Source: an uncultured Porphyromonadaceae bacterium
Lineage (GTDB): Bacteria; Bacteroidota; Bacteroidia; Bacteroidales; Muribaculaceae
Length of the DNA: 39,275 bases
Direction: 5' to 3'
Assembly (NCBI GenBank): GCA_947177145.1
Contig: CAMWTL010000003.1
Span: forward strand, 1-39,275
Positions within the stretch are counted from its first letter, which is position 1, and each line of letters opens with the position of its first letter. This document shows, one piece after another, positions 19,285-38,155 of this stretch. The position numbers were made by a program, and so were the translations under genes. Below the pieces are notes generated by a model that was not told the origin of the DNA, made no database searches, and saw only the letters and a list, made by a program, of their open reading frames with translations.

Positions 19285-19288
19285 TAAA

Positions 19289-19405
19289 TCACTTCTTCTC
19301 ACCGCGAGGATGAGTCTGATTCCATTTCTTATATTCACGATGACCGATTATACTTCCGATAACCACACCGATGAAGGGAAGGATTACATAAATAGGAATA
19401 TTCAT
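19289..19405 (-). CDS. Small single-TM protein, 38 aa (absent from ORF track)
   Basis: ATG 19405 to TGA 19289: MNIPIYVILPFIGVVIGSIIGHREYKKWNQTHPRGEKK; own promoter-like elements and a terminator on the 3' side. Confidence 0.7.
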   Translation of the reverse strand: MNIPIYVILPFIGVVIGSIIGHREYKKWNQTHPRGEKK

Positions 19406-19463: not shown

Positions 19464-19608
19464 GGGCGTACACATTTTCTGTAGAAATACAATATAAGAT
19501 AAGGAGAACGGCTAAAAATATGCTCCAACCGAAAATTTTTAAGTAAGGAGATTCCTTTTTTTATATTTATTAACATTAGCCTGAAAGATTTTGGCAGAGG
19601 GGCAGCAT

Positions 19609-19616
19609 TAACTTTG
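19609..19616 (+). promoter_or_regulatory. Predicted -7 element (TAACTTTG) ahead of the 37-aa small ORF
   Basis: Exact TAnnTTTG match; nearest upstream TTTTGGCAG begins at 19589, giving a non-canonical spacer. Confidence 0.45.
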
Positions 19617-19725
19617 CAATGTCATCAGAAGAGATTGAGGGTCAACTTCAATTATGAAGCCCGACTTCAATTCTGATGCTGATTTGCCGTTAAAGCAAAA
19701 CGAAAAACATTTATTCTTTAACCAC

Positions 19726-19752
19726 GCGTCGGGTCGTTCTTTGGCCCGGCGC
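19726..19752 (+). other. 5'-leader hairpin just upstream of the 37-aa small ORF
   Basis: GCGTCGGGTC-GTTCTTT-GGCCCGGCGC: 10 pairs including two G-U, 7-nt loop, 16 nt before ATG 19769. Confidence 0.6.
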
Positions 19753-19768
19753 CTAAAAAAACAAAAGT

Positions 19769-19882
19769 ATGGAAACAGAAGAAGAACAAAAATCCAATCT
19801 CATTGGCAACCGACTTGCCATCTCTGCAATTTATGCACTCGGACTTGCCCTGATTCTCCTCCAGCTTCGTAGTCTTCTCTGA
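19769..19882 (+). CDS. Small single-TM protein, 37 aa (absent from ORF track)
   Basis: METEEEQKSNLIGNRLAISAIYALGLALILLQLRSLL: acidic N-terminus plus one hydrophobic helix; promoter-like element upstream and terminator downstream. Confidence 0.6.
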   Translation: METEEEQKSNLIGNRLAISAIYALGLALILLQLRSLL

Positions 19883-19918: not shown

Positions 19919-19959
19919 AAAAATGCGCCTGCCGAATCAACAACGGCAGACGCATTTTT
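19919..19959. terminator. Bidirectional terminator between the 37-aa ORF and the Bax-inhibitor-1 gene
   Basis: AAAAATGCGcCTGCCG-AATCAACAA-CGGCAGaCGCATTTTT; one mismatch; A-run on one side and T-run on the other. Confidence 0.9.
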
Positions 19960-37507: not shown

Positions 37508-37948
37508 TCAATGAGTCTCCCAAGGAAACTGCATATGTGAATAATAACTGAATGGAGAAGTAGCCACTCTGACGTTTGGACTTCCCGCAGCTCTTGAAGC
37601 AGCCCCGGCGGATTGAGAGCCGTAAAGCATTAAGGGACGTTCCTGTGCCCAACCACGGCTCTGATTGCGTACGTAAAGCTTACACAAGCCGCGAATCCCT
37701 GCCGTAGCCCGATGCACCTCAAGCAGGAGATCGGTCATACTCTCCACCTTATCTATCATAAATTCGATGACGGTTCTTGCCCCCATTGTAAGACGTGCAA
37801 AGATACGGTCGCCCTTACGGATCATCTTGGTTCGCATACTGTCCTTTCTCGGATTCACTTTATCCATCTCCTTCTCCTTATTTGTACGCAGTCTGCTCCA
37901 CTCCTTCTCCATCTTATCCAATTGTATCTCCTTGTTCATTCTATCCAT
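37508..37948 (-). CDS. Hypothetical charged protein, 146 aa
   Basis: ATG 37948 with upstream AAAGGAG Shine-Dalgarno on the minus strand; ends stop-to-stop with the TPR gene; TAATTTTG upstream. Confidence 0.65.
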   Translation of the reverse strand: MDRMNKEIQLDKMEKEWSRLRTNKEKEMDKVNPRKDSMRTKMIRKGDRIFARLTMGARTVIEFMIDKVESMTDLLLEVHRATAGIRGLCKLYVRNQSRGWAQERPLMLYGSQSAGAASRAAGSPNVRVATSPFSYYSHMQFPWETH

Positions 37949-38072
37949 AATGATTCTCCTTTTTCTTATCCTAATTTTATATTTTACTCCAGGCTATCCT
38001 CCCCTAAACCGAAATCCTACATTTTATTGGCTCCTAAACCGCTTTAGCAATGTGGATTTTGGAATTACAATG

Positions 38073-38080
38073 CAAAATTA
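38073..38080 (-). promoter_or_regulatory. Predicted -7 element (TAATTTTG on the minus strand) for the 146-aa ORF
   Basis: CAAAATTA on plus, about 125 nt upstream of ATG 37948. Confidence 0.45.
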
Positions 38081-38155
38081 GTCGGCATCACTGCCAAAAC
38101 TATGCAGTCATATGTTAAATAATGATTAAAGGAGCAGAATAAACAAAAAATTAGC

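Follow-up and report, generated by a model that had tools for sequence, protein, structure and literature searches.

The 39,275-nucleotide (nt) stretch analyzed here (the window; contig CAMWTL010000003.1 of an uncultured bacterium of the Muribaculaceae) contains a 37-codon open reading frame (ORF), METEEEQKSNLIGNRLAISAIYALGLALILLQLRSLL, on the plus strand at 19769..19882, stop included, which encodes a predicted single-transmembrane (TM) protein of a family with LQLRS at the C-terminus. On comparative sequence grounds, this ORF is a real gene that was previously unannotated. We propose, with a probability of roughly 0.6, that it forms a monocistronic locus for a small membrane protein belonging to a recA-linked, SOS-like DNA-damage regulon, and that the peptide is probably made upon DNA damage. 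The proposal draws on the conservation of the peptide and on a palindrome found both at the promoters of its homologues and upstream of recA.

Relatives of the peptide were first obtained with tblastn over 61 genomes of the same genus, which returned short stand-alone ORFs with an LQLRS(L/I)x ending. A survey of 111 same-genus genomes by profile search yielded 63 genomes with a match at E <= 0.05, about 60 of which were convincing on inspection. These homologues contain a single TM helix and end in a sequence close to LQLRS(L/I)L, and the family is essentially single copy per genome. In an alignment of 23 sequences, M, L, Q, R and S are invariant and Y and G nearly so, yet all six codons are used for the invariant L and R and both for Q; the closely related pair L012 and L097 shows 6 synonymous codon differences and no nonsynonymous one. 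Because homologues span the genus with such patterns of synonymous substitution, the ORF is not there by chance, and the codon patterns make protein-level selection clear. The genomic setting is also retained, with 47 of 60 peptide loci keeping the window's neighbors PPTase, CBS, Bax1-I or argS, while the orientation of the peptide gene relative to Bax1-I varies among loci. AlphaFold predicts a single helix spanning residues 3-36, consistent with a tiny single-pass protein that has one hydrophobic helix and presumably resides in the inner membrane. No profile match was found for the peptide in Pfam, NCBIfam, PHROGs or PDB, placing the family outside the annotation libraries searched, and the same profile gave noise-level matches only in other Muribaculaceae genera and other Bacteroidales families. 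As sampled here, the family appears in one gut-bacterial genus, in about half of its sequenced species. An earlier reading of this DNA, made from the letters of the window alone (the sequence-only reading), had proposed a 37-amino-acid membrane peptide in this frame; its coordinates were correct, and the homologues bear out the membrane helix and show the frame to be conserved.

The locus has the layout of an independent transcription unit. A Bacteroidales-type promoter on the plus strand (19591..19616) consists of a -33 TTG at 19591-19593 and the -7 element TAACTTTG at 19609-19616, the latter as the sequence-only reading had placed it. The promoter stretch 19560-19626 shares 76-77% DNA identity with three other species, and TAnnTTTG occurs upstream of nearly all peptide homologues. 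Downstream of the ORF, an inverted repeat resembling an intrinsic terminator is predicted from its fold on the plus strand at 19919..19959, where the same reading had expected a terminator, and is kept in the sister species G567. A sigma-70 promoter scan found nothing relevant at the locus, a failure expected for Bacteroidota. Taken together, these features suggest a monocistronic gene with its own promoter and terminator that encodes a conserved small membrane protein.

The promoters of the homologues share a palindrome, ACTGC-N9-GCAGT with the inner consensus AA..TT, whose right arm merges with the -33 TTGG, 9-10 bp before TAnnTTTG; it sits over the -33 box at fixed spacing in the peptide promoters of the genus. 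Scored as matches out of 10 against ACTGC-N9-GCAGT, 42 of 59 peptide promoters reached at least 8/10, compared to 10 of 177 other TAnnTTTG sites taken as background, and several of those 10 were regulon promoters themselves. The thresholds for the motif were picked after the peptide promoters had been inspected; nearly all recA regions described below stood outside the definition of the motif. Searched genome-wide with at most 3 mismatches, the operator plus -7 pattern was found in 83 of 111 genomes, and a reversed control gave practically none. The positional equivalent in the window of the site in 57 homologous promoters is a degenerate palindrome, CCTGA-AAGATTTTG-GCAGA, at 19580..19598, overlapping the -33 box. 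The suggestion of the sequence-only reading that the gene is regulated thus finds support in a conserved promoter site.

The palindrome also occurs upstream of recA. An initial match there suggested a DNA-damage regulon, and we therefore tested 67 further recA upstream regions, taking expectations from mononucleotide shuffles. The palindrome was perfect in 40 of the 68 regions (0.1 expected) and scored at least 9/10 in 54 (0.8 expected); it is present upstream of recA in the window's own genome (L416/L506) and in the sister species. The site is not at the -33 position of the recA promoters and was found on a scan of the whole upstream regions. In 49 of the 54 regions it is followed, after 76-81 or 99-104 bp, by a -7 element, the two spacing classes differing by about two helical turns. 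Among 20 same-genus genomes searched for the perfect extended form ACTGCAA-N5-TTGCAGT, those that have it mostly have it once, at recA where checked, with the exception of G040, in which the perfect site lies at an unrelated locus; the same search in 18 genomes of other genera found none. The two sites also appear to change together. In G018, G041 and G544, whose peptides have a divergent C-terminus, the operator is GTGC-N9-GCAC or a close form at the peptide promoter and at recA alike (L144, L145, L136; L435, L443, L439), which is what binding of a single regulator to the two sites would lead one to expect.

Other genes lie behind the same operator. In addition to recA, they encode UmuD, Vsr, WYL regulators, Cas3, DUF1232, an uncharacterized family with the motifs GDRIFAR...RNxSRGW...PWETH (hereafter RNxSRGW) and DUF1848, which we take to be SplB-like, an assignment that is our own and not derived from a tool. 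Sites at umuD score 9/10 (L459) and 8/10 (L457), and a Cas3-like HD/helicase gene of the window's genome (L348, G000:C161) and one in G022 (L363) stand behind a weak copy of the promoter. The window itself holds a second regulon promoter on the minus strand at 38071..38108, composed of a perfect ACTGC-N9-GCAGT and TAATTTTG with 0 mismatches to the pattern; a 146-amino-acid protein of the RNxSRGW family, with this same promoter type, is encoded on the minus strand at 37508..37948. This family is frequent in the genus and has a predicted small alpha/beta core; it gave no convincing match in Pfam, NCBIfam, PHROGs or PDB, and a fold search returned no PDB match at E <= 0.001. S24/HTH proteins of about 220 amino acids with a GDSM motif are encoded in many genomes, and we observed that G018 and G041 have an S24 protein with a different HTH sequence. 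Elsewhere in the window, a possible further small membrane ORF, MNIPIYVILPFIGVVIGSIIGHREYKKWNQTHPRGEKK, lies on the minus strand at 19288-19404 and has no relatives at homologous loci.

Several findings weigh against an SOS-like regulon. First, the window's own peptide site scores just 7/10 against ACTGC-N9-GCAGT. Second, at recA the palindrome is set apart from the -7 box by about 80 or about 102 bp on the upstream side, and the 4-7 nt flanking it are markedly more complementary to one another than expected, with every type of pair represented, resembling a hairpin or cruciform (e.g. L416, L490 and L493); covarying flanks of this kind go beyond what a plain operator needs, and the flanks of the peptide-promoter palindrome, unlike those at recA, show no such complementarity. 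Third, most umuD loci examined are without the palindrome, and RNxSRGW, Cas3 and DUF1232 do not belong to the classic SOS genes. Fourth, the S24/HTH genes have no good site (at least 8/10) within 700 nt upstream, so LexA-like autoregulation was not seen, and a self-regulating LexA among these proteins found no support. Lastly, the genome counts are not independent, because many of the genomes are metagenome-assembled and they are related to each other. Some of these points would suit a regulator of the palindrome that responds to something other than DNA damage, such as redox state, metal or growth phase, and has recA as just one of its targets: RNxSRGW, Cas3, DUF1232 and WYL targets are not diagnostic of SOS, and the position of the recA site differs from that at other targets. 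However, the strongest site is at recA in most genomes tested, and some umuD, DUF1848 and vsr genes carry the palindrome; we consider a regulator of this kind unlikely.

The sequence-only reading had put its emphasis on the leader, proposing that a long structured leader ahead of a tiny membrane peptide might mark a regulated or dual-function RNA. Its hairpin is indeed predicted at 19726..19752 on the plus strand, ending 16 nt before the ATG, with 11 bp and a 5-nt loop in the fold instead of the 10 pairs it had counted (dG -20.6, z -3.4). The whole leader of about 145 nt folds better than shuffled sequences (z = -3.9; transcript z = -3.7) and includes a predicted first stem that the earlier reading lacked, CATCAGAA/TTCTGATG, in which 19623-19630 pairs with 19671-19678 (19623..19678, plus strand). 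In the sister species G567, both changes in the stem convert G-U to A-U pairs, the loop is altered and the hairpin is kept, so the hairpin looks selected in this lineage; it is not conserved across the family. Leader lengths at 60 homologous loci, taken approximately from the transcription start site to the ATG, vary between about 15 nt and over 200 nt with a median of 41.5. Because 32 of the 60 do not exceed 45 nt and for the most part are predicted to be unfolded, the long structured leader is lineage-specific. Two other long-leader species, G016 and G547, have a hairpin in the same place, 15-16 nt ahead of the ATG, with 9-bp stems unrelated in sequence to that of the window. Searches of Rfam 15 at gathering and relaxed thresholds gave nothing near threshold at the leader, tRNA-Leu being the only family to pass in the window. 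The leader was rejected as a conserved RNA, since neither its length nor its structure is conserved across homologous loci. That the leader is the functional RNA and the peptide secondary is thus very improbable despite the favorable folding and the two pair-preserving changes, as leader length and sequence vary and the conserved element is the peptide. The hairpin may matter in this lineage, with evidence too slight to claim an RNA element; judged across the homologues, it is at the promoter, not in the leader, that regulation is conserved.

By eye, we also noticed a TAnnTTTG motif, TACTTTTG, on the minus strand at 19762-19769, over the start codon, from which an antisense RNA to the leader could start; its letters are the same in the sister species and differ in most other homologues. 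A motif of this kind, read from 19769 to 19762, would have a place in an arrangement like tisB/istR-1, in which a membrane-damaging peptide with a structured leader is held under antisense RNA control as a type I toxin. The hydrophobic single-TM peptide, the long folded leader and the recA-linked operator would all fit such a toxin, but in most homologues the leader is short and unfolded and the antisense motif is absent, and in about 60 species the family occupies one fixed chromosomal position as a single copy, with no Rfam match. A type I toxin therefore seems quite improbable.

In the favored reading, that of an SOS-like regulon, a putative dimeric, DNA-damage-responsive regulator would bind the palindrome and block RNA polymerase, and DNA damage would lift this block on the peptide promoter. 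As a single helix, the peptide would then enter the inner membrane, where until repair of the DNA it might hold back division through binding to a late divisome protein, in the manner of SidA, or alternatively dampen the membrane, in the manner of TisB and DinQ; a SidA- or TisB-like function is suggested by analogy. In the window's lineage, the leader hairpin could tune the stability or translation of the mRNA. More broadly, we give about even odds to a picture in which an SOS-like response of its own operates in this Bacteroidales genus through an operator not described before, ACTGCAA-N5-TTGCAGT, and in which the peptide family serves as a dedicated small-membrane-protein effector or checkpoint and the RNxSRGW...PWETH family as a second effector, both encoded in the window. 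With a palindrome common to recA and a small membrane protein, it becomes possible to test directly whether an inducible DNA-damage response exists in Muribaculaceae, what regulates it and whether a membrane checkpoint peptide is part of it.

Comparable operators are known from the non-canonical LexA regulons of Bacteroidetes, in which palindromes precede recA, umuD/DinB and splB and S24-type proteins act as repressors (PMC8565304). Those operators, GGA-N5-TCC or CTAA-N5-TTAG, resemble the one described here in being palindromes before recA with an N5 spacer between half sites, but differ from it in sequence, and both regulator groups are reported absent from Bacteroidales, a major gut order (PMC8565304). 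Among small membrane proteins, SidA of Caulobacter is a 29-amino-acid, SOS-induced inner-membrane division inhibitor that acts on FtsW (PMC4211646). Like SidA, the peptide would be a tiny single-helix membrane protein with its own gene under an operator common to recA-type genes, whereas Caulobacter belongs to another phylum and uses another operator. DidA, a second small division inhibitor of Caulobacter, is likewise a damage-linked small transmembrane protein, but it is induced by DriD independently of SOS and LexA (PMC4211646), while the regulator of the window's peptide is putative. TisB and DinQ of E. coli are SOS-regulated, toxic single-TM peptides, and dinQ is under antisense RNA control (PMC11575346, PMC3567139). 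They share with the window's gene an SOS-type promoter and a single-TM peptide, and the window's lineage has a structured leader; in this family, however, such a leader is not general and the antisense RNA is putative. Small SOS membrane proteins are therefore a known kind, and the peptide appears to resemble SidA, DinQ and TisB in regulation and anatomy, a likeness from which we claim no family membership.
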